Under the pieces are notes generated by a model. That model did no database searches, had not been told where the DNA came from, and saw only the letters and a list, made by a program, of their open reading frames with translations. A stretch of DNA of 37,535 nt, taken from contig NZ_MWPQ01000041.1 of assembly GCF_002028545.1 (NCBI RefSeq), positions 1 through 37,535 on the forward strand, in the 5' to 3' direction. The stretch is from Nitrobacter vulgaris. GTDB taxonomy: Bacteria; Pseudomonadota; Alphaproteobacteria; Rhizobiales; Xanthobacteraceae. Positions 1,578 through 21,044 of the stretch are shown one piece after another (positions within the stretch are counted from its first letter, which is position 1; each line of letters opens with the position of its first letter). The position numbers were made by a program, and so were the translations under genes.

Positions 1578-1602
1578 AACCCCTCGCGTGAGCTCAAGTT
1601 CC
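1578..1602 (-). promoter_or_regulatory. EcfG-type promoter, GGAAC-N16-GGTT
   Basis: On the minus strand GGAAC (1602-1598) is followed after exactly 16 bases by GGTT (1581-1578), 31 bases before ATG 1546. The sigma-EcfG consensus in Rhizobiales is GGAAC-N16/17-CGTT, so one base of the -10 differs. Confidence 0.55.
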
Positions 1603-1670
1603 TATGCGATCCCAGAAAGCAAAAGCACACCGCGTCGCCGCTAAGAAGACGGTTTGTCTTGGGAGGAGAT

Positions 1671-1695
1671 GGAACTGGCACTGGAAATAAACGTT
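1671..1695 (+). promoter_or_regulatory. EcfG-type promoter, GGAAC-N16-CGTT (perfect)
   Basis: GGAAC (1671-1675), 16 bases, CGTT (1692-1695), 35 bases before the ATG of the YidB-like gene. It matches the sigma-EcfG consensus exactly and is divergent from the promoter at 1578-1602. Confidence 0.7.
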
Positions 1696-1730
1696 GCAGC
1701 GGGAGTTCTTGACACACGGGAGTCAACAAT

Positions 1731-2185
1731 ATGTCGCGCGGGATGCCATCGATGACAGCGTTGCTAGGCCTGCTCGCGTTGGCGGGCTACCAAAACAGGG
1801 ACAAGCTTGCGGAGCTGTTAAATGGCGCAGGCGGAAACAAAACTCAGCCTGAGGTCGGAAAACAACAGGATCAACCCCTCGGCAACCTGCTCGGTCACCT
1901 AAGCGGAGTGTTGGCTGGTGGCGGCGTGGGTAGTCTCCTTAGCGGGGGGCTCAGCGAATTGCTCGAGCGGTTTAAGGAGAATGGGCAGGGAGATGCTGCC
2001 AATTCCTGGGTGGGCAAAGGGAGGAGCTTCCCGCGCCGCGTCTGAAGCAGGCTATCGGTGCGGATATCTTGGCCGCATTGGAACAGCAAACAGGTCTATC
2101 GCAGGAAGAACTGTTAGCTAGACTTTCGCGAGAGCTTCCTTCTGCCGTTGATAAATACACGCCGGACGGGCGTATTCCGAACTAA
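1731..2185 (+). pseudogene. YidB-like (DUF937) protein gene with a 1-base deletion
   Basis: The first frame (1731 to about 2020) encodes MSRGMPSMTALLGLLALAGY, a Gly-rich LSGVLAGGGVGSLLSGGLSELLERF segment and SWVGKGRSF, then stops at 2045. From about 2022 the next frame continues the family pattern ([20 protein letters not shown], then [29 protein letters not shown]) to a TAA at 2183-2185. Restoring one base near 2020-2028 gives a 151-residue protein of normal YidB length. The truncated product would lose the C-terminal helical half. It is followed 32 bases later by the GlsB-like gene and preceded by a perfect EcfG-type promoter, so the pair is a stress operon whose first gene is broken unless the lesion is a sequence error. 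YidB function is not established; it recurs in stress regulons. Confidence 0.75.
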
Positions 2186-2217
2186 TCAAAATTGAAAGAA
2201 CAGAAGAGGGGTTCGAT

Positions 2218-2478
2218 ATGGGTATCATCTGGACGATTCTTATTGGGTTTGTAGCTGGGGTAATCGCGAAGTTCATCATGCCGGGCGACAATGAACCGGC
2301 CGGCTTCATCCTTACGGCCTTGCTCGGTATCGTTGGAGCGTTTGTGGCAACTTATCTCGGTCAAGGATTGGGTTGGTATCGACCTGGAGAGGGTGCAGGC
2401 TTGATCGGCGCGATCGTGGGCGCCGTTATCGTACTGTTCGTTTACAGCTTCCTGGCTGGCCGTCGCCGCTCGGTGTAG
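2218..2478 (+). CDS. GlsB/YeaQ/YmgE family stress-response membrane protein
   Basis: 86 residues, the usual family size. Three hydrophobic segments (about 2-18, 28-46 and 60-80) carry the family signatures: GVIAKFIMPGDNEPAGF at about 15-31, then LLGIVGAFVATYLGQ and GLIGAIVGAVIVLFVYSFL. ATG 2218 follows AAGAGGGG at good spacing. These are small transglycosylase-associated inner-membrane proteins of unknown mechanism that are induced in stress. It is probably co-transcribed with the YidB-like gene from the EcfG-type promoter at 1671; no separate promoter is visible. The call is secure; the function is not. Confidence 0.9.
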   Translation: MGIIWTILIGFVAGVIAKFIMPGDNEPAGFILTALLGIVGAFVATYLGQGLGWYRPGEGAGLIGAIVGAVIVLFVYSFLAGRRRSV

Positions 2479-2733
2479 AGGCGCAACGTTGTATGTCTGG
2501 CGTCTCCCTAGCCTTAGACCAGCCCCTCATTGCGGAGGCCGCGAGACTATCTCCCTGGAGACAGTTACAAATCCGATCGGCCCGGTTGGGCGCGCCCTGG
2601 ATGGCGGTCGCCGCGGATGAACTGCCCACCCCTGTTATGATCTCATATCGAGTTCGCCATCGTGTGCCTCGGGCGACTTGATCGGAACGCCGTTGCACCG
2701 GCGGGAGGGTAAAGGGTCACCGCTTGCGTCATT

Positions 2734-2758
2734 GGAACCCTTTACGCTCTCGCCGGTT
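2734..2758 (+). promoter_or_regulatory. EcfG-type promoter, GGAAC-N16-GGTT
   Basis: GGAAC (2734-2738), 16 bases, GGTT (2755-2758), ending 25 bases before ATG 2784 of the dehydrogenase. One base of the -10 differs from the CGTT consensus. Confidence 0.5.
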
Positions 2759-2783
2759 GGCGCGAGTATTTGGGAGGGAAATC

Positions 2784-3959
2784 ATGCGAGCACTGTGTTG
2801 GCACGGGAAGGGCGACGTCCGCGTCGACACTGTTCCAGATCCGAAAATTCAGCATCCGCGCGATGCGGTCATCAAGATTACGGCCTGCGCGATTTGCGGT
2901 TCTGATCTCCATCTCCTGGACGGTTACCAGCCCACGATGGAGAGTGGCGACATCCTCGGTCATGAGAACATGGGCGAGGTCATCGAGCTCGGCTCCGAAG
3001 TAACTAATCTCAAGATCGGTGACCGGATTGTGGTGCCTTTCACCATTAGCTGCGGTCAATGCTGGTTCTGCCAAAAGGGTCTATTTTCGTGCTGCGATCG
3101 AACGAACCCCAATGCGGAGATTGCGGCTAAGGCAATGGGACACTCGCCCGCAGGGCTGTTCGGATTTAGCCATATGCTAGGCGGCTATGCCGGTGGCCAG
3201 GCCGAGTATCTCCGCGTGCCGATGGCCGACGTTGGGCCGATTAAAATTCCCGACAACGTCAGTGACGAGCAAGCGTTGTTTCTTTCGGACATTTTTCCGA
3301 CCGGCTACATGGCCGCCGTCAACGCCCAGATCGAAACGGGAGACACCGTGGCGATCTGGGGCTGCGGACCCGTTGGTCAATTTGCCATCCGCTCGGCGCT
3401 CTTACTCGGCGCGGGCCGCGTAATCGCGATCGATGAGATACCTGAGCGGCTGGTGATGGCGGAAGCCGGCGGCGCCGAGACCATCGATTTTTCTAAGACT
3501 GACGTTTACGACGAATTGATGAAACGGACCGACAAACGTGGTCCGGATAGCTGCATTGACGCGGTCGGCTGCGAGGCATCCGGCCACGGGGCTGCCGACG
3601 CCGTCATGGACCGGGTGAAAGCCGCGGCGTTTCTGGCCACCGACCGGGTCCATGTGCTGCGCCAGGCCATCATGTGCTGCCGCAAGGGAGGCACGGTTTC
3701 GATACCCGGCGTCTATGTGGGCATGGGCGATAAGATCCCCATCGGCGCGGCAATGAACAAGAGCCTCACCATCAAGACCGGCCAGACCCATGTGCAGGCT
3801 TATACCCGATCCCTTCTTAAGATGATCGAAGAGAGCAAGATTGATCCGAGTTTCGTCGTCACGCATCCAGCTAGCCTTGAGGACGCGCCGGCGATGTATA
3901 GGAAATTTCGCGACAAGGAGGACGGCGTGATCAAGGTCGTGCTTCGGCCCGGGCGATGA
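2784..3959 (+). CDS. Zinc-dependent alcohol dehydrogenase, formaldehyde-dehydrogenase-like
   Basis: 391 residues of the MDR zinc alcohol dehydrogenase family. Catalytic zinc site: Cys38 in CAICGSDLH and GHE at 59-61. Structural zinc site: Cys90, Cys93, Cys96 and a Cys at 103/104 in [15 protein letters not shown]. The Rossmann motif GCGPVG is at 193-198, followed by a [15 protein letters not shown] dinucleotide region. The insert [20 protein letters not shown] and the long C-terminal part resemble glutathione-independent formaldehyde dehydrogenases and related enzymes that oxidise alcohols or aldehydes with NAD(P)+. ATG 2784 is chosen because GGGAGGG lies just upstream; the frame is open to 2724 without a comparable site. 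It has its own EcfG-like promoter, so a detoxification role in stress is inferred. The true substrate cannot be read from the sequence. Confidence 0.9.
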
Positions 3960-4380
3960 TGAGCACGCGCGCGACGGTGTCGGTCAGCCACGACTGAGTG
4001 CGAAGGTCCGAGTCGAAACTGCCGGGGCCGATACCGAAGAAACCAACAAGGATTGAAATCATTCAAGAGGCGACGAGCGCCTTTTAGTGAAGATGTATGC
4101 CGACGGCAGCCAGGAGCGAGTGGGCATCGTGAAGCTCCCAAGGAACCGCCACGCTTTCGATATCGTAAAGTGGCTTAGACAAGAGCATAAAAAAGATTTT
4201 TAATTTCACGTCAGCCAGCCAAATGTTCCGGGAGTCCGCGGGCGCTTCGCGCGGCCAAGCGCAATCACCGATACCCACGAAACATTGCACGATTTTGCTG
4301 AACAGCTTCAACGTCTATCGATGATGGTTCCGCTGGTTATCTTGAAGGAGCGCACGTCTTGACGCCTTGAACTGACAAGC
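3960..4380. other. Region with no assured gene
   Basis: About 420 bases follow the dehydrogenase. No terminator hairpin or recognised gene is seen. The only coding-like stretch is the small plus-strand frame 4093-4203, listed separately. The right part runs into a decayed antiporter gene, so some of this may be older debris of that gene. Confidence 0.4.
4093..4203 (+). CDS. Candidate 36-residue basic protein
   Basis: ATG 4093 to TAA 4203 encodes a protein-like sequence: MYADGSQERVGIVKLPRNRH, then an amphipathic AFDIVKWLRQEHKKDF tail. A GTG two codons upstream is an alternative start. No good ribosome site is present. It may equally be the C-terminus of a lost gene. Not recognised. Confidence 0.25.
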   Translation: MYADGSQERVGIVKLPRNRHAFDIVKWLRQEHKKDF

Positions 4381-4677
4381 GGTGCTATTTGCGATTCTAA
4401 TATTCTGTCGTTCGGCCGCTGTCAGCATGCTCAGCGTTGCGGCCACGCCACGTCGTTGGGCTAACAACTGGCAATTGGTTTTTTCGGTATCCGCGGAGTT
4501 GGTACTATCGATTATTTGGCGTATGCGCTCGGAAAATGCCGGTTCGAGCAGGCCGACCTGTTTTGGAGCACGAGTGCGCTCGTCATTCTAGTATCCATCA
4601 TTCTGCAGAGAATTATTGTGACGCCGGCGATAAGATTCATCGAACGCCGTCGCAGCGCAGACGAAAAGGCCACTTAA
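4381..4677 (+). pseudogene. C-terminal remnant of an NhaP-type Na+/H+ antiporter
   Basis: From 4477 the frame reads GFFGIRGVGTIDYLAYALGK, then FWSTSALVILVSIILQRIIVTPAIRFIERRR, ending at TAA 4675-4677. The (F/W)FGIRGxGxxxYLAYA pattern and the next membrane helix are characteristic of the last two transmembrane segments of CPA1 (NhaP-like) cation/proton antiporters. Just upstream, in another frame, a hydrophobic VLFAILIF stretch followed by PRRWA (4382-4460) looks like the preceding helix, so a frameshift falls near 4460-4475; a TAA at 4462-4464 blocks the downstream frame. The first 300 or so residues are absent. This is a dead gene, not a small protein. Confidence 0.65.
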
Positions 4678-5108
4678 GAGCGCATCCGGTGGGCACGGAT
4701 GAAAAATTGTTCCGCTTAGGACGAGGGGGGCGGGCTACCGCGGACGATGAATATATGCCACGCGTAATGCCACTTCCGCGTCAGCGTTCAGATCTTCGAG
4801 CGCAGCTTCAAAGCTGCGATTGCACTTTGAATGGCCGCGATTTGCGCCATCTACTGTCCCGCTATCGCGCCCTGCTGTCCCATCAGCGCGACAATCAAAT
4901 CGCAACGCAGCTCCTTAAGTTGAATAAGGGGCACTCCGTGATCTTTTAGCCAGGACGTAGCTAAAAAGCGCAGCGGCGAATCAGATTCACTCGTCTGATA
5001 ATTTCGTCAGGGATGGTGTGTGGATAAGAAAAGGTTCTGGGACCAAAAGGTTTACGAGCGAAACCATGTTGAATCTCACGCGTTGAGTGAAGGAACAGGG
5101 AGGTTGCG
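4678..5108. other. Region with no recognised gene
   Basis: A plus-strand frame stays open to about 4949 (tail MPRVMPLPRQRSDLRAQL and so on), but its composition is unremarkable and it has no start signal. No promoter of the EcfG type and no hairpin was found before the coiled-coil gene at 5109. Confidence 0.35.
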
Positions 5109-5663
5109 ATGGTTTCGGCACCAGGAATATTTTTTGCGGGGATCGGCACTGCGGCCCTGCTCATTGGAGCGGGATTTGGAGGCGGGGTGCTGCTGGGAAA
5201 GGCGGCTGTCAATGCTCGGCCAGCGCGAACTGCCGAAGCGCAAGGTAGCCTTCCTGCGGCTAGGGTGGTTCTACCTGCCATGGCGGATGTCACACCGTCC
5301 AGCGACAGGCCGGCTGAAAACATCGTTAAATCGCCGCCTCCGCTACAAGTGGAGTCTATACCCGCCGTTGCGCCCGTACAGGTAAATGATTTTCGCGAGC
5401 AGGACAGAGAAAGCGAAAAGCAGGCCGCGCGGAAGGCCGAAAAGGAGCAAAAGCAGGTTGCTAAGAAGGCTGCCGAACGCGAACGCCACAAGCGGTATGC
5501 AGCGCAGAAGGCCAGGCAGGAGGCCGCCCGCAGGCAGCAACAACAAGAGCAAGAATTGCGGCAACAGCAGCAAGAAGGGATGGGGCGCTCACAACCTTCA
5601 AGCTTAATGGCGTTTGACAGGACCCAAGGGCCGGCTGAGCAGATTAACTTCTTCGGGAGGTAA
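5109..5663 (+). CDS. Membrane-anchored coiled-coil protein of unknown function
   Basis: 184 residues. ATG 5109 follows AGGGAGG at six bases. Residues 5-32 are a Gly-rich hydrophobic anchor (IFFAGIGTAALLIGAG, then GGGVLLG). Residues 35-95 are a Pro/Ala-rich linker. Residues 97-160 are a highly charged helix rich in Glu, Lys, Arg and Gln with A-(A/E)-K and poly-Gln runs (RKAEKEQKQVAKKAAERERH, then RRQQQQEQELRQQQQ), almost certainly a coiled coil. The layout resembles TolA-like or FtsN-like tethered proteins but no domain is recognisable. An alternative frame on the other strand (4961-5707) is rejected because its Cys/Leu-rich content is the antisense of this helix. Its neighbours, both debris, give no functional clue. 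Confidence 0.65.
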   Translation: MVSAPGIFFAGIGTAALLIGAGFGGGVLLGKAAVNARPARTAEAQGSLPAARVVLPAMADVTPSSDRPAENIVKSPPPLQVESIPAVAPVQVNDFREQDRESEKQAARKAEKEQKQVAKKAAERERHKRYAAQKARQEAARRQQQQEQELRQQQQEGMGRSQPSSLMAFDRTQGPAEQINFFGR

Positions 5664-5962
5664 CCACGACTCATACCGAACTTAGGAAGCGGGGTGTCTG
5701 CGTCCAAAATCCTGCGGCGCCAATGTGACTCTTGAGCACTTCAAAAGCTTTAAAATGCCACTCTGCTTCCTGCTTAAGCCGTGACTGTATTCAGTCGAGC
5801 CAACCGGTCATGCTCCGGGTGGGTTAGTTTATATGAACCCCTCCAAGAGGTGGGACAGCACCGTTTCTTTAAACGAATGACGTTGTACTTGCCGTTCAAA
5901 AACCAATCGACTCGGTATTGATGATCGCAATTACAAAGGTGGGATTCCTCAAGCGCTTCACC
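5664..5962. other. Intergenic region between the coiled-coil gene and the IS3 remnant
   Basis: No gene recognised. A short perfect inverted repeat (GACTG TATT CAGTC) lies near 5782-5796. Nothing else is evident. Confidence 0.35.
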
Positions 5963-6066: not shown

Positions 6067-6490
6067 TGAACCGCCCCGGGTTTGCCGGAGGCTCCAACTC
6101 TTGAGAGGATGGAGCCACCATGAGTAAGACGACCAACAAGTTTCCGCCTGAGGTCCGCAACCGCGCTGTCCGACTGGTCCTTGATCACGAGCACGAGCAT
6201 CAGTCGCGATGGGCTGCAATTACCTCGGTTGCCGCGAAGATCGGCTGCACAGGCCAGACATTGAACGACTGGGTGAAGAAGTCGGAGGTCGACACCGGCA
6301 AGCGTCCTCGCGCATCGACGGACATGACCGCCAAGATGAAGTCTTTGGAGCGCGAGAACCGTGAACTCCGACAAGCCAATGAGATCCTGCGCAAGGCATC
6401 CGCGTATTTTGCCCAGGCGGAGCTCGACCGCCGGTCAAAGACATGATCGTGTTTATTGACGATCATCGCGAGGTCTATGGGGTTGAGCCG
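6067..6490 (+). mobile_element. IS3-family element, 5' part only
   Basis: A putative left end starts with TGAACCGCCCCGGG at 6067, followed by an untranslated leader, complete orfA (6120-6446) and the first 15 or so codons of orfB (6443 to about 6490). The element breaks off inside orfB, where ligase-coding sequence begins. No right inverted repeat is present. It is therefore a deletion remnant, unable to move by itself. Confidence 0.7.
6120..6446 (+). CDS. IS3-family transposase OrfA
   Basis: 108 residues. The N-terminal helix-turn-helix of the transposase_8 / OrfA type ([18 protein letters not shown], then [19 protein letters not shown]) is followed by a leucine-zipper coiled coil ([21 protein letters not shown], about 71-91), as in IS3-family OrfA proteins. 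It binds the element ends and is normally fused to OrfB by -1 frameshifting. Its stop overlaps the orfB ATG by four bases (ATGA at 6443-6446), the usual arrangement. The catalytic partner OrfB is almost entirely lost, so the protein can at most bind DNA. Start at ATG 6120, preceded by GATGGAGCC. Confidence 0.85.
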
Positions 6491-7291
6491 ATCTACAGCC
6501 GCAACGGCAAGAGCGTCAGCCATAGCTATATCGACGTCGCCAAAGCGCTGGAATGCGTGAAAGGCGACGCGGTCATCGACGGCGAGCTTGTGGCTCTCGA
6601 CGAACAAGGCGTCTCGCACTTTCAGCTGCTGCAAAACGCTCTGCGTCATCAGGCGAAGCTGCGTTATTGCGCATTCGATCTCATGTTTCAGGATGGGGAC
6701 GACCTGCGAAGATTGCCGCTTACGGAGAGAAAGAAGCGTCTCAAATCCATCCTGCCGAAAGACAAGCTGATCGCCTTCAGCCGCCACCGACTGACATTCG
6801 GCACGAAGTTCTTTGAAGAAGCCGAGCGCAAAGGCCTTGAAGGGATCATGGCGAAACGCGCCGACAGCACGTACCAGTCCGGCGCGCGCACGGACAATTG
6901 GCTGAAAATCAAGACCTCAAAGCGACAGGAGGTCGTCATCGTCGGCTTCACGGCTCCCAGAAGAACGCGGCCGTACTTCGGCGCGCTGACGCTCGCGCTG
7001 CGTGAAGGCAAGGAGTGGCATTACATTGGGCATGTCGGTACCGGGTTTAGCCACGAGACCCTCAAGGAAGTGCACGAGAAACTTATCAAGCTGAAAGCTG
7101 AAAAGTCGCCCTTCGCTAAAAAAGTAAAAGACGAATCCGTGACGACGTGGGTGAAGCCGCAGCTGGTGGCAGAGGTCAAGTTCACAGAATGGACTAGCTC
7201 CGGCGAGATGCGCCATCCCGTCTATCTCGGTCTGCGCGCCGATAAGCAGGCCACGGACGTTGAGCGCGAACGCGCGCGGCCACACGGCTGA
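6443..7291 (+). pseudogene. ligD: Chimeric frame: IS3 OrfB start fused to a beheaded LigD ligase domain
   Basis: The first 15 or so codons ([17 protein letters not shown]) are the N-terminus of IS3 OrfB. From about 6490 the frame continues, in phase, as an ATP-dependent DNA ligase domain of the LigD (non-homologous end joining) type: YSRNGKSVS, DGELVALDEQG (motif III), FDLMFQDGDDLRRL (IIIa), EGIMAKRADSTYQSG (motif IV), NWLKIK (motif V), and an OB-fold ending in GEMRHPVYLGLRADK. Motif I (KxDGxR), which carries the lysine that is adenylated, lies upstream of the junction in intact ligases and is absent. The nuclease and polymerase domains of full LigD are also absent. The 282-residue product could be made from the orfB start but should not ligate. 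It converges with the DUF421 gene, two bases away. Confidence 0.8.
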
Positions 7292-7293: not shown

Positions 7294-7785
7294 TCATTTT
7301 CGCTTCAGGACGCTGAGCCGCCCGTCGCCCTCAAGTGTCGCGAGCCTGACGTCAGCGTAATCTTCAACCTGATGTTCCCGAAGCTGCGCTTTAAGCTCAT
7401 CCTCCGTGATCATTTCCTTTCGTAAATTCTGCGAAATAAGGCGTCCGTCACGAACCAGAGTGAGGCTTGGGGGAGAAATGTATGGCCGCGTCCAGGGAAA
7501 GCGCCAGGATATCCAGTCCAGCAGATATTCCCAGGCTACAATCGTGAGAACCAGTGTGAGGCCTTCAGTGATGGAGCCATAATCTTTTCCGAGGCCGTTC
7601 TGCGCGGCATCGGCAATCAGGACGATGACTAGCAGGTCCGCGGGTCCAAAATGCCCTGCCTGACGCCGTGCCATGACGCGCAGGATGACAAACAGCCCAA
7701 GATACATGAGGCTGCCGCGCACAATAATTTCCGCAAGGCCTATCGCCGGTACGAAGACGGAATTCCAGTCGATCGACAAATGCAT
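7294..7785 (-). CDS. DUF421 / YetF-family membrane protein
   Basis: 163 residues. Three hydrophobic segments lie in the first 90 residues (about 10-38, 48-65 and 75-92), with GLAEIIVRGSLMYLGLFVIL and RRQAGHFGPADLLVIVLIAD typical of the YetF N-terminal part. They are followed by the soluble DUF421 domain: TLVRDGRLISQNLRKEMITE, DELKAQLREHQ, then DVRLATLEGDGRLSVLKRK. Length is normal for the short rhizobial members. The function is unknown; B. subtilis relatives occur in spore and stress contexts. Start at ATG 7785 with GGAGGGC upstream. An EcfG-type motif lies about 100 bases upstream (7884-7909). Confidence 0.85.
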   Translation of the reverse strand: MHLSIDWNSVFVPAIGLAEIIVRGSLMYLGLFVILRVMARRQAGHFGPADLLVIVLIADAAQNGLGKDYGSITEGLTLVLTIVAWEYLLDWISWRFPWTRPYISPPSLTLVRDGRLISQNLRKEMITEDELKAQLREHQVEDYADVRLATLEGDGRLSVLKRK

Positions 7786-7883: not shown

Positions 7884-7909
7884 AACGCTCGCTCACATTT
7901 CAGAGTTCC
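7884..7909 (-). promoter_or_regulatory. EcfG-type promoter, GGAAC-N17-CGTT
   Basis: On the minus strand GGAAC (7909-7905), 17 bases, CGTT (7887-7884). It sits between the end of the Nudix gene and the DUF421 start, about 100 bases before ATG 7785. This is an exact consensus match with the longer allowed spacer. Confidence 0.5.
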
Positions 7910-8452: not shown

Positions 8453-9226
8453 TCACTTCAGTCTAATCCAGGCAGGGGCATGGTCGCTTGCACCTTCCTT
8501 GCCGCGCACCTTACGGTCAACGCCACCGTCGATGAGGCGTTTCTTGAGATCAAGGCTTAGCAGGAAGTGGTCGAGCCTCAGGCCTTTGTCATTCTCCCAG
8601 CGGTGCCGCATGTAGTCCCAGAACGTATACATCGGGTCATCGGGATGGAGATATCGCAATGCGTCCGTCCAGCCTTGCTTCAAGAGTCGCTGAAACGCAG
8701 CACGGCTTTCCGGCTGCAAAAGCGCATCGTCGTCCCATGATTTTGTTGGATAGATATCAAAGTCAGTGGGTACGACATTGTAGTCGCCGACGAGCGCGAC
8801 CAGCGCTCCCGACTTCTTCAGCGTCTTCGCATGGCGTATCAGCCTGTCGAACCATGCGAGTTTGTAATCAAACTTTGGGCCCGGTTGTGGATTGCCGTTA
8901 GGCAGGTAGATACAGGATACGATGATCCCTTTGACCGCGGCTTCCAGATAGCGGCTCTGATTGTCGGCGGGATCGCCTGGAAGACGCTCGCGCGTGACCT
9001 CGGGCGCGGAGCCTCGCGAAAGAATGGCGACGCCGTTCCAGGACTTCTGACCAATCCAGGCTGCACTGTACCCGGCCTCCTCAAGGGCGCCGGCTGGAAA
9101 AGCCGCTTGCTCGGCTTTCAATTCTTGAAGGCAAACAATGTCCGGTTTGGAGCTCTTCAGCCAGGCTATGAGATTCGGCAAACGCCGGTTGACATTGTTG
9201 ATGTTGAACGTCGCGATCTTCACCAT
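8453..9226 (-). CDS. xthA: Exodeoxyribonuclease III (AP endonuclease)
   Basis: 257 residues, normal for the family, with every hallmark of the exonuclease/endonuclease/phosphatase fold: N-terminal MVKIATFNINNVN (Asn10), QELK with metal ligand Glu35, YLPNG at 108-112, GDYN with Asp148 and Asn150, and the C-terminal SDHAP histidine (about 248-252). The enzyme cleaves DNA 5' of abasic sites and trims 3' ends in base excision repair. Start at ATG 9226, with GGAGGAATGGTG just upstream. A weak EcfG-like motif (GGAAC-N17-TGTT, 9267-9242) lies 15 bases before it. It is the only intact DNA repair gene seen in the first 20 kb, and its immediate downstream neighbour, the Nudix gene, is broken. Confidence 0.93.
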   Translation of the reverse strand: MVKIATFNINNVNRRLPNLIAWLKSSKPDIVCLQELKAEQAAFPAGALEEAGYSAAWIGQKSWNGVAILSRGSAPEVTRERLPGDPADNQSRYLEAAVKGIIVSCIYLPNGNPQPGPKFDYKLAWFDRLIRHAKTLKKSGALVALVGDYNVVPTDFDIYPTKSWDDDALLQPESRAAFQRLLKQGWTDALRYLHPDDPMYTFWDYMRHRWENDKGLRLDHFLLSLDLKKRLIDGGVDRKVRGKEGASDHAPAWIRLK

Positions 9227-9301
9227 TCCTCCACCGAAGCGAACACTTACGGAGGCCGCGCAGTTCCGCTGCTAGTGGGCAAGGTTAAAACCCGAGCGTC
9301 A

Positions 9302-9981: not shown

Positions 9982-10359
9982 CTACCCGAGAGCGGAATGG
10001 GTGACGCGGGTGCCGTAATAGTCATCGACCGACTTGGACCGCGCGGGATCCGACCAATTCCAGCCGCTCTCGTCCGCGTACTTCGGCGCGCCGTTGAGCT
10101 GGTCCGCGGTGATGCCGATGCGGTATCCCTCGACGTTGGTGTCGTACTTCAGCGCATTCCACGAAACAGGATAGTGGTCGTTGCCGATGCCGAGAAATCC
10201 GCCGAAGCCGAGAACCGCGTACGACACGCGCCCGCTCGTCTTCTCGATCATCACGCGCTCGATCGTTCCGATGGCCTGATCGTCGGGGCCGTATACGGAA
10301 GTGCCCGCAACTTTGTCGCTTCCGATCAGCGTGCCGGTCTCTCTCTCTTCGGTAACCAT
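9982..10359 (-). CDS. PRC-barrel domain protein
   Basis: 125 residues. Residues 10-85 are a PRC-barrel: LIGSDKVAGTSVYGPDDQAI, GTIERVMIEKTSGRVSYAVL, GFGGFLGIGNDHYPVSWNAL, matching the beta-barrel found in photosynthetic reaction centre H subunits and RimM. Stand-alone rhizobial members are small soluble proteins, often stress-linked, with no defined biochemistry. The C-terminal WSDPARSKSVDDYYG segment is typical of this subfamily. Start at ATG 10359, with AGGGAGAA just upstream. It has its own hairpin terminator and a partial EcfG-like motif 29 bases upstream. Confidence 0.88.
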   Translation of the reverse strand: MVTEERETGTLIGSDKVAGTSVYGPDDQAIGTIERVMIEKTSGRVSYAVLGFGGFLGIGNDHYPVSWNALKYDTNVEGYRIGITADQLNGAPKYADESGWNWSDPARSKSVDDYYGTRVTHSALG

Positions 10360-10387: not shown

Positions 10388-10412
10388 AATCGATTGTCGA
10401 GAAGATAGTTCC
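10388..10412 (-). promoter_or_regulatory. Weak EcfG-like promoter, GGAAC-N16-GATT
   Basis: On the minus strand GGAAC (10412-10408), 16 bases, GATT (10391-10388). The -35 is perfect; the -10 differs at two positions from CGTT. Its placement before the PRC-barrel gene is right for a promoter. Confidence 0.3.
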
Positions 10413-10983: not shown

Positions 10984-11065
10984 CAGGACCTGCAGCGCTC
11001 GTGAATGGTCGATAGCTGGCAACTCCGGGACCAGAGGCAAGGTTCCTGCGGTCTGCCGCGCCCGC

Positions 11066-11907: not shown

Positions 11908-13103
11908 ATGGCGCCCGATACAATATTCATTGATGTTGCCGGCTCCGCGCATCTTTTTAAAGGCGAAGCAGCGCTTTTGAAAGACCTCCATTCCCGGCTT
12001 GCCTCCGCGCAGCTTTCGGCGCGGGCAGCTATAGCGGATACACCCGGCGCGGCTTGGGCGATCTCGCATTACGCGGGAATTGATATAGTACCGCCCGGCC
12101 GAGCCGCCGATGTTCTCGGCAGCCTGCCGGTGGCGGCTCTGCGGCTTCCTCAGCAGGCATCAGCCTTCGCGAAGTCGGCGTCGAACGAATTGCGCAGCTC
12201 GCTTCTCTGCCGCGCGCTTCACTTCGCCAGCGTTTTTCGGGCGATGTCCTCCTTCGCCTCGATCAGGCACTGGGCGCGGCAGTCGAAGTGCTCGTTCCTC
12301 TGATACCGAAGGAAGTGCCGCGCATGACGCTGAAGTTTGCCGAGCCGATCAGCACTCCCGACGATCTGCAGCGAGTCATGGCGCTTTTATGCGAAAAGCT
12401 CATGATTGATCTTGGCGCGCGCGGCGTTGGCGCAAGGCGGCTCGACATGGTGTTTCAGCGGGTCGATAATATCTCGCAAGCGCTCCGAATCGGTACATCG
12501 AAGCCGAACCGCGATACGAAACATCTTACCAAGCTTCTTGCGGAACGGCTTGTGCTGATCGACCCGGGCTTCGGCATCGAGGAAGCGACTCTGACCGCCT
12601 CATGGGTCGAAGCATTGACGGAGCGGCAGACGGTTGGAGTCGCGGAGACGGGATCCGAAGTCGACGTCAGCCAGCTCGTCGACACGCTTCGCGTTAGGCT
12701 AGGCAACGAACGGGTTTTTAGGCTCACGCCGGTTGAAAGCGATATTCCGGAGCGTTCAATGCGGCGCGTCGCGCCGCTCTTCAGGACGGACGGCGCAACC
12801 TGGCCGAGCGATTTGCCCAGGCCAGCGCGGCTGCTGTCGCCTCCTGAGGAAGTGCATGCCGTCGCTGAAATTCCCGACAGCCCTCCGCGTTTCTTCGTCT
12901 GGCGCAAAATCCGCCACCGGATCGCACGGGCCGATGGCCCCGAGCGCATTCTTGGCGAGTGGTGGCTCTCCGATAAGGAGATAGGCCTCCAGCGCGACTA
13001 TTACCGCGTCGAGAACGAAACAGGCGAGCGCTTCTGGCTTTTTCGCGATGCGCCGGCTGAATCCGGCGGACGCTGGTGGCTTCACGGTCTGGGTGAAGCA
13101 TGA
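11908..13103 (+). pseudogene. imuB: ImuB, mutasome Y-family-like protein; truncated and frameshifted
   Basis: ImuB is the catalytically inactive Y-family polymerase-like hub that links DnaE2 to the beta clamp in damage-induced mutagenesis. The fragment begins inside the palm region (TIFIDVAGSAHLFKGEAAL, then ARAAIADTPGAAWA, PPGRAADVLGSLPVAALRLP). A one-base deletion near 12155 follows, then ISLREVGVERIAQLASLPRA, LRLDQALGAAVE, the little-finger-like region and the C-terminal GERFWLFRD...[12 protein letters not shown] to 13103. Restored, it is 398 residues against about 500 in intact ImuB. The missing N-terminal 80-100 residues are not found in any frame upstream, and a stop precedes the first ATG. 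Its last four bases overlap the dnaE2 start (ATGA), as in intact cassettes. imuA is absent. Confidence 0.8.
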
Positions 13104-16100
13104 GCTACGCAGAGCTTCAGGTCACAAGCCATTTTTCGTTTCTGCGCGGCGCGTCGAGCGCTGAAAAGCTATTCGCTACCGCGGCAGTGCTCGGCATCGA
13201 CGCTCTCGCAGTCGTCGACCGCAACTCGCTTGCAGGGATCGTACGGGCCTATGAAGCTTCGCGCGTTACCGGCGTGGGCCTCATTGTCGGCTGCCGACTC
13301 GATCTTGAGGATTTTACCTCTTTACTAGTCTACCCGACGGATCGCGCCGCATATGGACGGCTGTGCCGCCTGCTCACTGTCGGAAAAGCGCGAGCGGGCA
13401 AAGGCAAGTGCGCGCTCTTTATCAATGGCGTCGCGGAATGGAGCGAGGGGCTTATCGCCGTCCTTGTCACTGACAAGCCGCACAATGATCTACCAAGCCA
13501 TTTGCATCGAGTTAGATCAATTTTCGGAGACAGGGCATACTGGGCCTTGACGCGCCGCTTTCGCCCGGACGATGCGGGCTATCTCCACGATATAGCGACG
13601 ATGGCGTGGCAGGCGCGCGTCCCGACCGTCGCCACCGGCGACGTTCTGTATCACGTGCCCGCGATGCGCATGCTGCAGGACGTCGTCACCTGTATCCGGC
13701 TCAAGACGACGATAGACAAAGCGGGATTTCTTAAGGAAAAGCACACCGACAGGTTTTTGAAAGAGCCTGCCGAGATGGAGCGTCTATTCCGGCAGTATCC
13801 GGATGCCATCGCGCGAACATGTGAGATTGCGACACGCTGCAAATTTTCTCTGGAGGAGCTGACCTACAGTTATCCCACTGAAGTCTCAGAAGACGGTCTC
13901 TCCGCGCAAGACCGGCTTGAGAAACTGACCTGGGAGGGAGCCGCGCAGCGCTATCCCGAAGGCATTCCTGACAACGTGGCGATGCAGCTGAGGCATGAGC
14001 TCGGCCTCATCGAACGGCTGCAATATGCCCCCTACTTCCTGACCGTAGATTCCATCGTGCGCTTTGCGCGCTCGAAGGGCATTCTTTGTCAGGGCCGCGG
14101 CTCCGCCGCTAATTCCGCGGTGTGCTTTGTGCTGGGCGTCACTTCCATCGATCCGGTACGGCAAGGACTCCTTTTCGAGCGGTTCGTATCGGAAGAAAGG
14201 CGCGAGCCTCCCGATATCGACGTCGATTTCGAGCATGAGCGGCGTGAAGAAGTCATCCAGTAAATTTACGAAACCTACGGCAGGACACGATCTGCCCTGA
14301 CCTCGACCGTGACGCGCTACCGCGCCCGCGGCGCAATCCGTGAGGTCGGCAAGGCGCTCGGCATACCGGAAGACGTGACCGGGGCGCTCGCCCGCATCAC
14401 CTGGGGCTGGAGTGAGGAAGGGGTTTCGGAGACGGAGCTAAAGGAGCTCAATCTCAATCTTTCAGACCGGCGCCTGCGAATGACGATTGAACTCGCGCGC
14501 CAGCTCATGGGAACGCCGCGGCATCTTTCGCAGCATCCGGGAGGCTTTGTGCTGACGCTGGACCGCCTCGATGAGCTGGTGCCCATCGAACCGGCCGCGA
14601 TGGAGAAACGGCAGGTGATCGAGTGGGATAAAGACGATATCGAGGCGTTGAAGTTCATGAAAGTCGACGTCCTCGGCCTCGGCATGCTCGGCTGCATGCG
14701 CCGCGCCTTCGATCTTCTGCAATCGTCGAAGGACAGTAAGCTGGGTCTTGCAACGATCCCCGCGGAAGACCGGCGGACTTACGAGATGATCCAAAAGGCA
14801 GATACGCTCGGTGTCTTCCAGATCGAAAGCCGCGCGCAGATGTCAATGCTGCCGCGCATGCAGCCGACGCGCTTCTATGATCTCGTCATCCAGGTTGCCA
14901 TCGTGCGGCCCGGCCCCATCCAGGGCGATATGGTGCATCCCTATCTCCGCCGCAGGGAAGGTAAGGAGCCGGTCGCGTTTCCAAAGCCTGAACTGGAGAA
15001 GGTTCTCGGCAAGACGCTGGGCGTGCCGCTCTTTCAGGAGCAGGCGATGCAGGTCGCGATGGTGGCGGCCGGGTTCTCGGCGAATGAAGCCGACCAGCTG
15101 CGCCGCGCCATGGCGACATTCAAATTCACCGGCGGAGTCAACAAATTCAAGGATAAGCTCATCCAGGGCATGATCGATAATGGATACGATATCGAGTTTG
15201 CGAACCGCACCTTCCGCCAGCTTGAAGGTTTCGGTTCATACGGCTTTCCTGAAAGCCACGCCGCAAGCTTTGCGCTTATCGCCTACGCTTCCAGCTGGAT
15301 GAAATGCCATCATCCCGAGTGTTCTGCGCGGCGATCCTCAATGCGCAGCCGATGGGGTTTTATGAGCCCTCGCAGCTTGTACGCGATGCGATCAGCCACG
15401 GGGTCAATATCCGCCCTATTGATGTAAATAGCTCAGCCTGGGACTGCACGCTGGAGCCCGACGGGAAATACCACGCGGTCCGGCTCGGGCTTCGGATGAC
15501 GCGCGGCCTTTCTGAAAAAGATGGCAAGACCCTCGCCTCTGCTCGCGCAAACCGTCTTTACCAATCTATCCCTGAATGCGCGCGGCGCGCAGGCATCGGA
15601 CCCGGCGCCCTCGTGCGCCTTGCAAACGCCGACGCTTTTTCCTCGCTCGGCCTGTCACGCCGCAAGGCTTTGTGGGCAATCAAGGGCCTTCGCAATGACG
15701 CCCTTCCCCTCTTCGAGGCGGCGGGCCAATGCGCGAAGGAGCTCGTGCCCGAGCAGGTCGAGGAGGATGTTTCGCTTCCCGTTATGACCCGCGGCCGCGA
15801 GGTCGTCGAGGATTACAGATCACATGGCCTTTCCTTACGCCCGCATCCGCTGGCCTTCCTCCGCGCCAAACTGTCCTGCCAGGAGATCAGCCCCTGTGCC
15901 GCCTTGCGGACCGCTAAGAGTGGATCGCGCATCACCGTCTCCGGCCTCGTCATGGTGCGTCAGCGGCCTGGCTCTGCCAAGGGCGTAATGTTCATTACGC
16001 TTGAAGATGAGACCGATATTGCAAATCTTATCATCTGGCCTTCGCTTTTCGATAAACTGAGGCGCGTGATCCTGGGCGCTCAGATGCTTGCCTGCCGCGG

Positions 16101-16356
16101 CAGAGTGCAAGTGGCGAACGGCGTCATCCACCTCATTGCCGAGCATCTCGTCGATCAGTCATCATTGCTACGCAAGATTGGCGGAAGCGATGAGCCGTTC
16201 GTGGTCCCCGCAGGAAGAGGCGATGAAGCGATTCATGGCAGCGGTGGCGGGACTGATAGCCGTGAGACCAAGGCGTTTAATCATGCCGCCCGGGACATCT
16301 ACATCCCGGACCTTCACATTGATACCCCCAACGTAAAGGCGCGAAATTTTCGCTAG
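13100..16356 (+). pseudogene. dnaE2: DnaE2, error-prone DNA polymerase III alpha; nonsense codon plus frameshift
   Basis: Three consecutive pieces make one DnaE2 of 1,085 codons, the usual length. 13100-14263: PHP domain ([17 protein letters not shown]) and start of the palm with catalytic PDIDVDF. TAA at 14261-14263 replaces a probable Tyr (VIQ[18 protein letters not shown]), without frame change. 14264 to about 15322: palm and fingers ([51 protein letters not shown]). A one-base deletion at about 15322 ([20 protein letters not shown]) moves to the frame ending at 16356, with helix-hairpin-helix and an OB domain (ITVSGLVMVRQRPGSAKGVM). Intact DnaE2 is the SOS-induced translesion polymerase working with ImuA and ImuB. 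Two independent lesions plus a broken imuB make function very unlikely. A truncated product would end about 14 codons after the first two catalytic aspartates. Confidence 0.88.
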
Positions 16357-16672: not shown

Positions 16673-17201
16673 CTATGGAGGATAACCTATAAGCCCTCCT
16701 TGTCGTACCGCAGATGGCGTCATTTGAGCTTCAACGATTTTCCCGTGTCCTAGTATATGCCGAACCGAAATCTGCCGTGAAAGGAGGTAGTCCGCGATAA
16801 TTCGACGATGACATCGCCACCATACGGCTTCCGCACACATGATCGCGGTTAATTCGCGCTGACTCGTTTCAATGAGACCTTCAAGGGCGGCCAAGAAGTC
16901 GTCGCTCATCGCGTAATCTGCGTAGTTGTGAAAGCTCTGATTTTGCCAGGAAGCATTAAACTCCGCAGGGATTATTTTGCTTTTTCTTCGGTGCCCGCCC
17001 AGCGCGGCGCAATAGACATACCCGATCTGGAGGCTCTTAAGCGCATCTGAGAGATGTCCGCGGTTGAAATGCGGAAACCGACGCGACGTAGGCGAACTTC
17101 GGACATCGACCAAAGTGCGAATTTTTTGCAGCAATCAAGAGTTCGCCAAACTCGGCAATGGTTCGGGTTGAATGTCCAAGCGTGTAAACGGGCTTTGTCA
17201 C
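16673..17201 (-). pseudogene. DUF488 family protein, frame broken in an A6 run
   Basis: GTG 17201 opens VTKPVYTLGHSTRTIAEFGE, LLIAA, the DUF488 N-terminus (TLGHSxRxxxEFxxLL). In a run of six A on the coding strand (17126-17131) the frame is lost by one extra base. In the next frame follow KIRTLVDVRSSPTSRRFPHF, NRGHLSDALKSLQIGYVYCA, ALGGHRR and the hallmark CAEAVWWRCHRRIIADYLLS, to a stop at 16673-16675. With five A the protein is 175 residues, normal for the family. DUF488 proteins are small, widespread and of unresolved function. A one-base slip in a homopolymer could be a sequencing error, a reversible phase switch or decay. An EcfG-like promoter lies almost on top of the GTG. Confidence 0.75.
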
Positions 17202-17209
17202 TCTTTACG

Positions 17210-17235
17210 AACCCTGATCAGCTTAGGAAGGTTCC
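17210..17235 (-). promoter_or_regulatory. EcfG-type promoter, GGAAC-N17-GGTT
   Basis: On the minus strand GGAAC (17235-17231), 17 bases, GGTT (17213-17210). The GTG of the DUF488 gene is only eight bases beyond the -10, so transcription would begin at or very near the start codon. Confidence 0.45.
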
Positions 17236-17469: not shown

Positions 17470-18171
17470 TTACGATCTGGCGCGCGCGTGACCAAAATAC
17501 ATTATGCTGTTGAACGGATGGGGTCCGAAACTAAAGTCGAGGTGCCGGTCGATACTGCGTGGGCCGAAACCACACACAGGTCCGACTTGAAAACCTGCCT
17601 GTAGCAAGACTTCACTCAGCTCGGTTGGCTTGATGAAGAGGTCGCTGTCGTGCGTGCCTCGCGGCAACAATCGAAGAACGCGCTCGCCCAGAGTGATGAT
17701 CACGAATTTGGCGAGCCAAGTGCGATTGATGGTATCGAATACGAACAGCGCCCCATGTCGCAGCACGCGCCGGACCTCGGCAATCACCCTGTGGAGATCC
17801 GCGACATGCTCCAGAACGTCCACACAGACGACCACGTCACAGGACGCATCGGGCAATGGAATACTCTCGCCGACGCCCACGACGTAGTCGATCTCGAGCC
17901 CGACCTGACGGGCATGGTCCACCCCAGCGGCAATCGCACCATGCGATGGGTCGACGCCGACAACTTTGGCGCCTCGACGAGACAATTCTTCCGCAAGGAA
18001 GCCGCCGCCACAGCCCAGATCCAACACACGTTTGTTGACCCAATCGCCGACCAGCGGGTCGATCATCATCATGCGCGCAGGCGCCATTTTGTGCAGCGTG
18101 CGCAGCCATCGCGTCTCACCGCTCCACCATGTCTCAGCGTACTTCTCGTAGATGGAGAGGTCGTTTTTCAT
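17470..18171 (-). CDS. Class I SAM-dependent methyltransferase, UbiG-like
   Basis: 233 residues from ATG 18171. Motif I VLDLGCGGGFLAEELSRRGA at about 49-68, the acidic end of strand 2 (VVGVDPS), motif II-like VVCVDVLEHV with post-motif HRVIAEVRRVLRHGALFVFD, and the UbiG-like segments WWSGETRWLRTLHKMAPARM and FIKPTELSEVLLQAGFQVGP. The pattern is closest to 3-demethylubiquinone O-methyltransferase UbiG. The start differs from core UbiG, and the gene is coupled to a membrane methyltransferase, so a ubiquinone role is not assured; a polyprenyl- or quinone-like substrate is possible. ATGA overlap with the upstream gene (18171-18168) fixes the start, although the frame is open further upstream. Confidence 0.8.
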   Translation of the reverse strand: MKNDLSIYEKYAETWWSGETRWLRTLHKMAPARMMMIDPLVGDWVNKRVLDLGCGGGFLAEELSRRGAKVVGVDPSHGAIAAGVDHARQVGLEIDYVVGVGESIPLPDASCDVVVCVDVLEHVADLHRVIAEVRRVLRHGALFVFDTINRTWLAKFVIITLGERVLRLLPRGTHDSDLFIKPTELSEVLLQAGFQVGPVCGFGPRSIDRHLDFSFGPHPFNSIMYFGHARARS

Positions 18172-18968: not shown

Positions 18969-19301
18969 CTGCACCATCGACGTTTGAGAGAAACACAGCG
19001 GCAACTTTGCTCTAGGCTGGCACCCGAGTATGTTACTGCCGTGGATGCCCATCGGCCAAGGGACCGCTTATCCACGGCGCAAGTCGATAAGCAGCGCGTT
19101 GCAAGCAGGTCGCTGACAGCTTTTGGCCTGCGATAGTCTGGGGTGCCCCGCTGAGGCGGGGATGGGCGACAGCCTAAAGTTTCCCTAAGCAGCTCGTGCG
19201 GCCGAAGGAAGCGAAGGTAACCAGACTTGAAAAGCAGAGAGCCTGAGGCGGCTCGCTGGGCTCCGCTAATATGCGGCACCGTTTTCCTGCGAAACCCTAT
19301 A

Positions 19302-19326
19302 GGAACCAGCGTGGCGCCGGCACGTT
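19302..19326 (+). promoter_or_regulatory. EcfG-type promoter, GGAAC-N16-CGTT (perfect)
   Basis: GGAAC (19302-19306), 16 bases, CGTT (19323-19326). Only seven bases separate the -10 from ATG 19334, leaving no room for a ribosome site: a predicted leaderless transcript. Confidence 0.65.
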
Positions 19327-19333
19327 CACGGCT

Positions 19334-19675
19334 ATGGACACCGCCACACTCGTCGGCTTTTTCGCCGCCTTCTGCACCTCCGTCTCGTACGTTCCGCAGC
19401 TTAAGAAGTGCTGGGAGACCGGCAAGGCCGAAGACCTGTCGCTCATGATGTTCAGCGTGCTTGCGACCGGCGTTGCCGCGTGGATCGTCTACGGCATCTT
19501 CAAGCACGACATCGTCATCATCATTGCCAACGCGTTGAGCCTGTCCTGTCTCGCGGGCATACTGTGGTTCAAGCTCAGGGAAGATAGGCCTCGTCGCTCG
19601 AGCTCAAAACATCAGGGCGCAGAATTTCTCAAAGTTAAAACTGGCTCAACCAAGCCGCAAATTGCGCGAGAATAG
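19334..19675 (+). CDS. SemiSWEET sugar transporter
   Basis: 113 residues. Residues 1-84 hold the three-helix PQ-loop repeat: MDTATLVGFFAAFCTSVSYV then PQLKKCWETGKAEDLSLMMF, SVLATGVAAWIVYGIFKHDI, VIIIANALSLSCLAGILWFK. The PQ motif and the conserved W...G/N residues fit bacterial SemiSWEETs, which dimerise to form a facilitative sugar channel (Bradyrhizobium japonicum has a studied member). The C-terminal 28 residues (about 86-113) are a charged extension beyond the usual 85-95 residue length. ATG 19334 is chosen by homology to the family start; the frame is open upstream to 19271 but crosses a perfect EcfG promoter. The promoter position predicts leaderless translation and induction under general stress. 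Confidence 0.9.
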   Translation: MDTATLVGFFAAFCTSVSYVPQLKKCWETGKAEDLSLMMFSVLATGVAAWIVYGIFKHDIVIIIANALSLSCLAGILWFKLREDRPRRSSSKHQGAEFLKVKTGSTKPQIARE

Positions 19676-19913
19676 TCCTCATTCACGGCGGTTGGGGATA
19701 GCGTTGCTGGCGAATCCCAAGCCCTTCGGTATTGTAATTGAGTGTATGCAAAAGAAGCCGGAGGCACTGGCGGATTATCAGCGAGCGAGCAAGATGAGCA
19801 GTGGCTGGAAGGAAGGGGAAGAAAGGCAGGGCCCAAGAATTTAGGAGCGAAGACCAATTAACTATGAAGCTTGAAGTTAAGCACCTTTCCTCCCGGTCAG
19901 CGATGCAGCGCGT

Positions 19914-20093
19914 ATGGAAGTTAAAGCACAGGAGAGACCAAACACGGCGAGGTTGGGAGGTCGTTTGCGGATCCAAACCTTTCTCGTACCCTACGTCGCG
20001 GATGGGCGCATATCTGCATTCGCCGTAGTATTCGCTGACGGGGCCTTCGTCACGAACCGCAGCGGAGCAAACGTGAAGCGCATTGCCGCGTAG
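19914..20093 (+). CDS. Candidate 59-residue protein
   Basis: ATG 19914 to TAG 20093. After a basic start (MEVKAQERPNTARLGGRLRI) come two strand-like segments, QTFLVPYVADGRISAFAVVF and ADGAFVTNRSGANVKRIAA, which look coding. The stop lies in the loop of the hairpin at 20080-20106, which is shared with the convergent DUF2171 gene. No good ribosome site is seen. Not recognised. Confidence 0.4.
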   Translation: MEVKAQERPNTARLGGRLRIQTFLVPYVADGRISAFAVVFADGAFVTNRSGANVKRIAA

Positions 20094-20106
20094 AGCGCGG
20101 CAATGC
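20080..20106. terminator. Bidirectional hairpin between convergent small genes
   Basis: GCATTGCCGCG and CGCGGCAATGC form a perfect 11-bp stem with loop TAGAG. It contains the stop of the plus-strand frame and lies six bases past the stop of the minus-strand DUF2171 gene. No strong T tract is present on either side, so it may act as a transcript-stabilising or rho-assisted end. Confidence 0.55.
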
Positions 20107-20111
20107 GTAGC

Positions 20112-20315
20112 TCAGCGCCTCTTTACCTCTTTGGCTTGCACGGAGAGCCTCACGGTATTGCCTTCGACATCTGCGACCAGCTCCTTGTCGACGTAGTGAT
20201 GCTGGTTGTCAGAGCCCTTCTCCAGCTTGAGGCGGCTCACCTCGACCTCGTCGACGATGCCGACTTCCGCGCCGTCCTTGTCGACGACCTTCATGTGCTC
20301 TCTGATCTCGTGCAT
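20112..20315 (-). CDS. DUF2171-family small protein
   Basis: 67 residues from ATG 20315, preceded by AGAGGAGAACG; the longer frame to 20342 starts before the ribosome site. The sequence MHEIREHMKVVDKDGAEVGI, VDEVEVSRLKLEK, HHYVDKELVADVEGNTVRLS matches the compact PRC-like fold of DUF2171 (V.D.DG..VG.VD.V....I.L). These proteins occur with stress genes in Rhizobiales and Sphingomonads; function unknown. Normal length for the family. Single gene with a hairpin end; no EcfG motif is visible upstream. Confidence 0.8.
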   Translation of the reverse strand: MHEIREHMKVVDKDGAEVGIVDEVEVSRLKLEKGSDNQHHYVDKELVADVEGNTVRLSVQAKEVKRR

Positions 20316-21019
20316 TTGCGTCGTTCTCCTCTGGCTAAGCACAAACTCCCATGCCAGCTGAATGGTTGCACAGATCCGCGCTGCTGTCGCACCCCATGCT
20401 ATATAGAGCGCCGGAAAACTTTGGCGCGCGGCACGATCGGGCGTGGAAGTGTTCCATGTCCTACATCTTGCATGAGAAGGTTGAGGGCTTCGTCAGCGGC
20501 TTACTCGTCATTCAGCCGGCCTACAGCGAGAAGCAGTTCGAGGAGCTCATCAAGAACCGGCTCGCAGGAGGAAGTCCTCCCCTACACGAAGCTCTTGTCT
20601 GATGCGAAAGGTCGTCGCTGCGTCATCGCCATCGGCCGGGTCAAGCTGTGTTTCGACCACCAACGAGTGTTCTCTTCCCGGCCAATGCGCATGCTTGGAA
20701 CGTGGTATCGAGATGACGGTGCCCTATGTGGCTTGTATTGCGCATTCGTCGCGTACGATCGAATGGATAACTTCGCCTTGCCCGACCTCAGAACCTTACA
20801 GGCGACTGGCAGCAAAATATCGATTCCGTGCTTTTAGGTAACAGAACCATGAGCCGTCCGGCCATCATCGGAGCTGCTAATATCTCTTGATCAAAGGATC
20901 GGGAACGTGACGTCCGGAAGAGCATATTGTGCGAGTTCGGCAGAGGCATTCACACAAATGCAGAGCCGCTGTTCTTAACGCTCAAGTAAGTAAAACTTCT
21001 TTCGACTCCCAGGGGATGT
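20316..21019. other. 700-base region without an assured gene
   Basis: Plus-strand sequence 20456-20837 looks weakly coding in two successive frames: SYILHEKVEGFVSGLLVIQP, AYSEKQFEELIKNRLAGG, then one frame over VLPYTKLLSDAKGRRCVIAI, GRVKLCFD. It could be a frameshifted gene. I do not recognise it, and the third frame is also open, so the support is thin. The remainder, 20838-21019, holds only the approach to the promoter at 21020. Confidence 0.25.
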
Positions 21020-21044
21020 GGAACTTGCTGCTGGATAGTCCGTT
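21020..21044 (+). promoter_or_regulatory. EcfG-type promoter, GGAAC-N16-CGTT (perfect)
   Basis: GGAAC (21020-21024), 16 bases, CGTT (21041-21044), ending 35 bases before ATG 21080 of the secreted Tyr-rich protein. Confidence 0.7.

Follow-up and report, generated by a model that had tools for sequence, protein, structure and literature searches.

The general stress sigma factor EcfG and its promoter motif have been described in several bacteria. The motif reads GGAAC-N17-20-GTT in Sphingomonas melonis Fr1, where it is enriched within 100 bp of coding starts (PMC6599016), and GGAAC-N16-CGTT for EcfG1 of Rhizobium etli (PMC3892343; these two papers, as well as PMC3616915, are cited from partial texts). 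The EcfG-dependent genes of S. melonis include genes for a PRC-barrel protein, general stress protein 26 and a zinc alcohol dehydrogenase (PMC6599016), and leaderless mRNAs are known in Sinorhizobium meliloti (PMC3616915). Here we analyse an entire contig of Nitrobacter vulgaris (NZ_MWPQ01000041.1; 37,535 nucleotides, i.e. 37.5 kb), hereafter the window, in which an original prediction had proposed a general-stress-response island on the basis of clustered EcfG-type promoters. We consider it highly probable that EcfG recognises some seven or eight promoters in the window, which thus represents a real cluster of EcfG targets. Contigs (C; the window is C22), genomes of relatives (G) and extracted loci (L) are referred to by working labels.

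Candidate promoters in the window and their conservation

All four matches to GGAAC-N16/17-CGTT that had been claimed are present with the proposed positions and strands (1671-1695, 19302-19326 and 21020-21044 on the forward strand, 7884-7909 on the reverse strand), and the accompanying chance expectation of about 0.6 is reproduced by dinucleotide shuffles (mean 0.59, with four matches reached in 1 of 100 shuffles). Their intergenic placement was likewise recovered (4 of 4), as judged with a simple codon-usage script; small genes escape it, such that some sites called intergenic may sit in uncalled open reading frames (ORFs). The proposed one-base variants are real as well (those starting at 1578, 2734, 17210 and 37026; Table 1) and each deviates at the first base of the -10 box. 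When this base is left free (GGAAC-N16/17-NGTT, equivalent to GGAAC-N17/18-GTT; hereafter the looser motif), the window contains 11 sites, four of them with CGTT and three of them, at 9242-9267, 11021-11046 and 24687-24712 on the reverse strand, overlooked before. A same-strand ORF start follows within 100 nt for 9 of the 11 sites, the exceptions being 11021 and 24687. The spacing profile of GGAAC-Nx-GTT peaks at N17 (six) and N18 (five), all other spacings from 8 to 29 giving zero to three matches, and among 90 permuted motifs at these two spacings (the real one included) the real motif ranks highest, with 11 matches against a mean of 2.5. The approximately 2.5 chance matches expected from the permuted motifs are consistent with the four sites that lack support from homologues.

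Some orthologue or paralogue in which both boxes are kept was found for 7 of the 11 sites, and the conservation is strongest for the sites of the dehydrogenase, SemiSWEET and the secreted Gly/Tyr-rich protein. In the case of the zinc-dependent alcohol dehydrogenase, we compared the best 80 of 569 matching loci, assigned from record titles to the Hyphomicrobiales (25), mainly the Sphingomonadales (36), taxa outside the Alphaproteobacteria (17) and others (2). Of the 25 Hyphomicrobiales orthologues (two of which, L137 and L139, share one promoter sequence), 17 have the looser motif in the 120 nt upstream, where shuffling yields a mean of 0.05 and a maximum of 1; the motif occurs in 0 of 36, 1 of 17 and 0 of 2 loci of the other groups, and a one-base variant, GGACC-N16/17-NGTT, is found in 8 of the 36. 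The dehydrogenase is thereby well supported as a putative EcfG target. Its identity of 92% to a Bradyrhizobium protein and of 82-86% to many Sphingomonas proteins suggests that the gene has spread horizontally.

The SemiSWEET site falls inside a longer ORF that begins at ATG 19271, but this ATG is lost in the 97%-identical G002 orthologue and the gene therefore probably starts at 19334. Both boxes are kept in that orthologue and in a paralogue on C66 (75% identical), the spacer of which differs, and this double conservation makes SemiSWEET a well-supported candidate target. In each of the three copies only 7-10 nt separate the end of the -10 box from the ATG, and the mRNA is therefore predicted to be, probably, leaderless or nearly so. 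Inspection by eye of the more distant homologues revealed GGAAC some 32-34 nt before the start in L108 and L109, with GCTT or CATT as the second box, and nothing similar in four others (L110 to L113). A search of open-licence papers for SemiSWEET in connection with EcfG and the general stress response had no paper on SemiSWEET among its best matches.

Homologues of the small secreted Gly/Tyr-rich protein are present in 20 of 41 genomes (its own counted), and 30 of the 35 matches, i.e. those with loci, were scanned with distances taken from the start of the match rather than from the start codon. In all eight same-genus relatives (8 of 8) the best homologue is preceded by GGAAC-N16-NGTT, which lends good support to the proposed EcfG control of this protein, and 16 of 29 other loci have the looser motif at no more than 400 nt from where the match begins.

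The DUF488 paralogue on C56 retains both boxes with a spacer that is one base shorter (GGAAC-N16-GGTT). By homology, the DUF488 start is a GTG 7-8 nt after the box in both copies (8 nt in the window); the frame in the window is broken shortly thereafter, such that the conserved start (17120-17235) lies in another frame than the remainder of the gene. The C56 paralogue likewise matches in two pieces. For the CxxC mini-protein, one paralogue on C11 carries an exact GGAAC-N16-CGTT and a second has no site within 200 nt; the support for the site at 37026 is weaker because of this second paralogue and because the DNA flanking the first is also well conserved. The PRC-barrel gene is preceded by a variant box, and GGAAC-N16-GGTT occurs at two of its homologues, namely a paralogue on C88 (82% identical) and one in G005 (42%); the G002 homologue has N18 and a second C88 paralogue has no site.

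The promoters of the PepSY-like/YflT genes and of yidB-glsB stand back to back within about 180 nt. The motif is kept, with a changed spacer, in the 77%-identical yidB orthologue of G002, and the PepSY-like/YflT gene pair recurs with an exact motif in a Bosea locus. Both sites have a counterpart on C56 that is a recent copy and hence not independent.

Table 1. Candidate promoters and associated genes in the window.
Feature	Position	Strand	Remarks
YflT-domain stress protein	595-1215	-	PF11181, 26.5 bits, slightly above the cut-off of 26.2
Small secreted PepSY-like protein	1229-1546	-	ORF, no Pfam match; 'PepSY-like' is the label of the original prediction
Candidate EcfG-type promoter, GGAAC-N16-GGTT	1578-1602	-	31 nt before ATG 1546; PepSY-like and YflT genes
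Candidate EcfG promoter, GGAAC-N16-CGTT	1671-1695	+	exact match; before yidB (1731) and glsB (2218)
YidB-like gene	1731-2045	+	PF20159; frame ends early compared with relatives
GlsB/transglycosylase-associated protein	2218-2478	+	PF04226
Candidate EcfG promoter, GGAAC-N16-GGTT	2734-2758	+	25 nt before ATG 2784
Zinc-dependent alcohol dehydrogenase	2784-3959	+	PF08240, PF00107
Uncertain promoter, exact motif, N17	7884-7909	-	about 98 nt before DUF421 gene (7294-7785, -)
Uncertain site, GGAAC-N17-TGTT	9242-9267	-	15 nt before exonuclease III-type gene (8453-9226, -)
Variant, GGAAC-N16-GATT	10388-10412	-	28 nt before PRC-barrel gene (9982-10359, -)
GGAAC-N17-AGTT	11021-11046	-	no recognised gene start nearby; probably chance
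Candidate EcfG promoter, GGAAC-N17-GGTT	17210-17235	-	before DUF488 gene (listed ORF 16673-17134, -)
Candidate EcfG promoter	19302-19326	+	ends 7 nt before SemiSWEET start
SemiSWEET/PQ-loop sugar transporter	19334-19675	+	PF04193, PF03083
Candidate EcfG promoter, GGAAC-N16-CGTT	21020-21044	+	before secreted Gly/Tyr-rich protein
Small secreted Gly/Tyr-rich protein	21080-21484	+	ORF, no Pfam match
GGAAC-N17-AGTT	24687-24712	-	no recognised gene start nearby; probably chance
Candidate EcfG-type promoter, GGAAC-N16-TGTT	37026-37050	+	before 54-aa CxxC protein (37128-37291)

Elsewhere in the window, a variant GCAAC-N17-AGTT precedes the DUF2171 gene both here and in G002, and a Bradyrhizobium homologue of that gene has an exact site. 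Only weak one-mismatch sites lie upstream of the YflT and NUDIX genes, and no upstream motif was found at up to one mismatch for the cold-shock gene, PGM, GlsB and the 92-aa (25474) and 84-aa (35083) genes. The interior of the ndvB-like gene (26201-34747) contains no match to the looser motif; its product is a cyclic-glucan-synthase-like protein of 2848 aa with GH94 and glycoamylase domains.

Regulators and EcfG-type sites across the genome

The identification of the motif as the EcfG consensus agrees with the published R. etli and S. melonis motifs and with the regulators that the genome (3.90 Mb, 95 contigs) encodes. PhyR (PF22029, PF22233, PF00072) and NepR (PF18557, E 2.1e-16) are encoded side by side on C23 together with an EcfG-like sigma factor (PF04542, PF08281) and an HWE kinase (PF07536), i.e. 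the joint presence of PhyR, NepR and EcfG by which an EcfG-type general stress response system is recognised. A search for an autoregulatory nepR-ecfG promoter showed, on the nepR strand between phyR and nepR and at up to one mismatch, a single candidate site, GGAAC-N16-AATT; in S. melonis the Ku gene also has an AATT box (PMC6599016).

The 84 exact sites in the genome are placed mostly between genes (61 intergenic, 19 genic, 4 partial), as compared with 13 genic, 1 partial and 2 intergenic for a small reversed-motif control (n=16) drawn from the window and a 400-kb genome sample. This sample was picked with the hit list known, contains 0 of the 84 exact sites, and was used only to train the codon model, to estimate coding density and for the control motifs. 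The non-genic exact sites are most frequent at 25-45 nt ahead of a start codon on their own strand, with 12 cases versus 1 on the divergent side. Pfam families were matched by 17 of the 19 proteins examined that are encoded downstream of exact sites (regulators excluded), and among these 17 are stress-type proteins (two CsbD, GT20, heme oxygenase, DUF4142, pyridoxamine-oxidase-like, CHRD, MgtC and DUF899, as well as a DUF883-like protein slightly below the Pfam cut-off) and the less typical cytochrome c and Fur. Taken together, they look like an ordinary EcfG regulon. At L066, an exact motif is located 123 nt upstream of a response-regulator gene (Response_reg and Trans_reg_C) whose product resembles ChvI, which points to a possible connection of the stress regulon with a two-component system of the envelope.

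In the mechanism that we envisage, stress would cause the HWE kinase to phosphorylate PhyR, phosphorylated PhyR would bind NepR and remove it from EcfG, and RNA polymerase carrying the freed EcfG would initiate transcription at GGAAC-N16/17-NGTT (signalling steps after PMC6599016). The genes switched on in this way would be those for the PepSY-like/YflT, YidB/GlsB, zinc dehydrogenase, DUF488, SemiSWEET, secreted Gly/Tyr-rich and CxxC proteins and perhaps the PRC-barrel protein, which look like envelope and stress accessories. EcfG binding, stress induction and the roles of the target genes are what we infer from these sequences.

The looser motif is concentrated in the window, which contains 11 of its 203 genomic sites where 1.95 are expected and is the densest 37.5-kb stretch of the genome (scan P 0.0045; the simulation treats the genome as a single continuous sequence and counts sites that overlap on both strands twice). 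The next-densest stretch is C66:19-43 kb (10 sites), and C88:115-136 kb (7) and C12:76-94 kb (7) are dense as well, each per 37.5 kb. The stretch on C66 carries the SemiSWEET paralogue and that on C88 a PRC-barrel paralogue with the motif; these stretches are covered in part by L284, L285 and L286.

Alternative explanations

The alternative that survives best, to which we give slightly less than an even chance and which is compatible with a real EcfG-target cluster, is that the promoters are genuine but do not form a functional island, i.e. that a degenerate accessory region is simply where EcfG targets have accumulated. The region has a low coding density and is partly duplicated and partly decayed. 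Close to the end of C56, a single stretch (L033 9041-12579) shares 92-94% identity with positions 553-2062 and 3771-5811; the intervening part (glsB and most of the dehydrogenase gene) is deleted there, such that the start of yidB is fused to the dehydrogenase tail in an ORF of 187 aa. Repeats bound the contig, since bases 1-127 are identical, in reverse complement, to the end of C56 and roughly the final 100 (37434-37535) equal ends of C48 and C34; the left boundary resembles an IS21-type end. Neighbouring genes are decayed, those for yidB, DUF488, a DnaE2-type polymerase, an ImuB-type protein and DNA ligase being broken or short as judged from ORFs and Pfam matches (the stop-to-stop frame of yidB, for instance, spans 110 aa, as compared with mostly 150-230 aa in relatives), and presence within the genus is patchy, with a close orthologue of DUF421 and of SemiSWEET in 1 of 8 same-genus relatives each. 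Two weak associations, neither with a matched control, point instead to a functional grouping: glsB lies near yidB in 9 of 23 yidB loci of relatives, and homologues of YflT/PepSY-like, SemiSWEET or DUF2171 genes lie near the dehydrogenase in 4 of the 80 loci, from three genera.

Two segments of the region may be described separately. The mutasome genes at 11908-16356 look decayed or mis-assembled, with the ImuB-type gene in two frames, the DnaE2-type gene (PHP, DNA pol III alpha) in pieces and an in-frame stop ending at 14263. At 6120-7291, an ORF that by eye resembles a transposase is directly followed by an ATP-dependent DNA ligase ORF without the first 43 or so positions of its Pfam domain; G005 has a homologue in the same arrangement, together with DUF421 and NUDIX.

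A bolder variant, which we offer tentatively and regard as rather unlikely, is that stress genes travel and duplicate jointly as small promoter-carrying modules that plug the accessory region into the EcfG network of the host, with SemiSWEET as a sugar transporter that is switched by stress and translated from an mRNA without a leader. Its candidate members, put forward with the same reserve, would be the dehydrogenase, YflT/PepSY-like, YidB/GlsB, SemiSWEET, DUF2171 and PRC genes.

A different objection is that, in a long contig with little coding sequence, a short motif such as this one is matched by chance and that the clustering of the sites is an artefact of the choice of window; a number of observations weigh on that side. 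Across the genome, neither the exact motif (84 sites versus 97 for a reversed control) nor the looser one (203 versus 244) is in excess; the position relative to genes nevertheless carries a signal. Four exact sites have a P of 0.009 in a preset window of 37.5 kb, but a best stretch with at least four is to be expected in such a genome (scan P 0.96), and in the window 9 of 360 permuted motifs, the real one counted, also reach four. The density of exact matches thus proved typical of the genome, an outcome that the original prediction had itself named as adverse, and we dropped it as evidence. Acceptance of NGTT is partly post hoc, as it was taken up after the dehydrogenase orthologues had been seen and the published motif was met later. 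Furthermore, the non-coding share of the window (43%) is about twice that of the 400-kb sample (19.5%); scaled for this share, 11 sites in one preset window have a P of 0.005, uncorrected for the many windows, and the clustering claim is therefore moderate rather than strong. The proposed island is consequently unsupported by the exact motif and supported by the looser one, as the densest stretch, with this reservation.

Individual sites weigh on the same side. The segment with the site at 7884 is absent from the 92%-identical DUF421 orthologue of G005, the sole close one found, which leaves DUF421 unsupported as a target. The site at 9242 has no counterpart at its position in 28 other homologous loci with upstream sequence among the matches listed (30 loci of a longer match list were scanned), two of the 28 having a site elsewhere, at 75 and 107 nt; the exonuclease III-type gene was dropped as a target. 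The sites at 11021 and 24687 are probably due to chance. For the secreted Gly/Tyr-rich protein, the paralogue on C16 and the second-best homologues in the genus (that of G002 excepted) lack the motif. The predicted control of YidB/GlsB and PepSY-like/YflT is supported in part, by one independent relative for each site, while others have none: a Sphingomonas locus has the PepSY-like/YflT pair and no motif, and among all 28 yidB loci, scanned with distances from the match start and not the start codon, no relative besides G002 has a site within 150 nt (in G020 a site lies at 174 nt, and G018 and G028, 60-63% identical, have none up to 400 nt).

Chance nevertheless appears very improbable as the general explanation, given that boxes are kept despite changed spacers at 1671, 17210 and 19302, that the sites at 2734 and 21020 are conserved across orthologues and that the spacing peaks at 17/18; for the majority of the seven sites with support, conservation already argues against chance. 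That the promoters are real but read by another extracytoplasmic function (ECF) sigma factor, one that recognises a similar -35 box, is scarcely credible either, for while an AAC-type -35 box is shared by many ECF factors, the motif here agrees in both boxes with published EcfG motifs and precedes genes of known general-stress families, CsbD, GT20 and DUF883-like proteins among them.

Comparison with described EcfG systems

The EcfG system and its motif are already known, and it is the particular targets and their clustering that are new. A real cluster of EcfG targets would extend the known stress regulon, with conservation evidence promoter by promoter, to genes of unknown use, i.e. those for SemiSWEET, DUF488, the secreted Gly/Tyr-rich protein and PepSY-like/YflT, and it suggests that an accessory region undergoing duplication and decay is where EcfG targets gather; if the modules proposed above exist, such a region would connect directly to the EcfG network of the host.

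The window resembles the R. etli EcfG1 regulon in its motif, GGAAC-N16-CGTT (PMC3892343), and the system of Sinorhizobium meliloti in that RpoE2 is likewise a general-stress sigma factor and that leaderless mRNAs occur there (PMC3616915). In S. melonis Fr1 some motifs are located 2-10 nt from the start, as is the SemiSWEET site in the window (PMC6599016). The S. melonis dehydrogenase #2499, in contrast, is a putative indirect target (PMC6599016), whereas the dehydrogenase gene of the window, a possible counterpart of #2499, has a GGAAC motif of its own.

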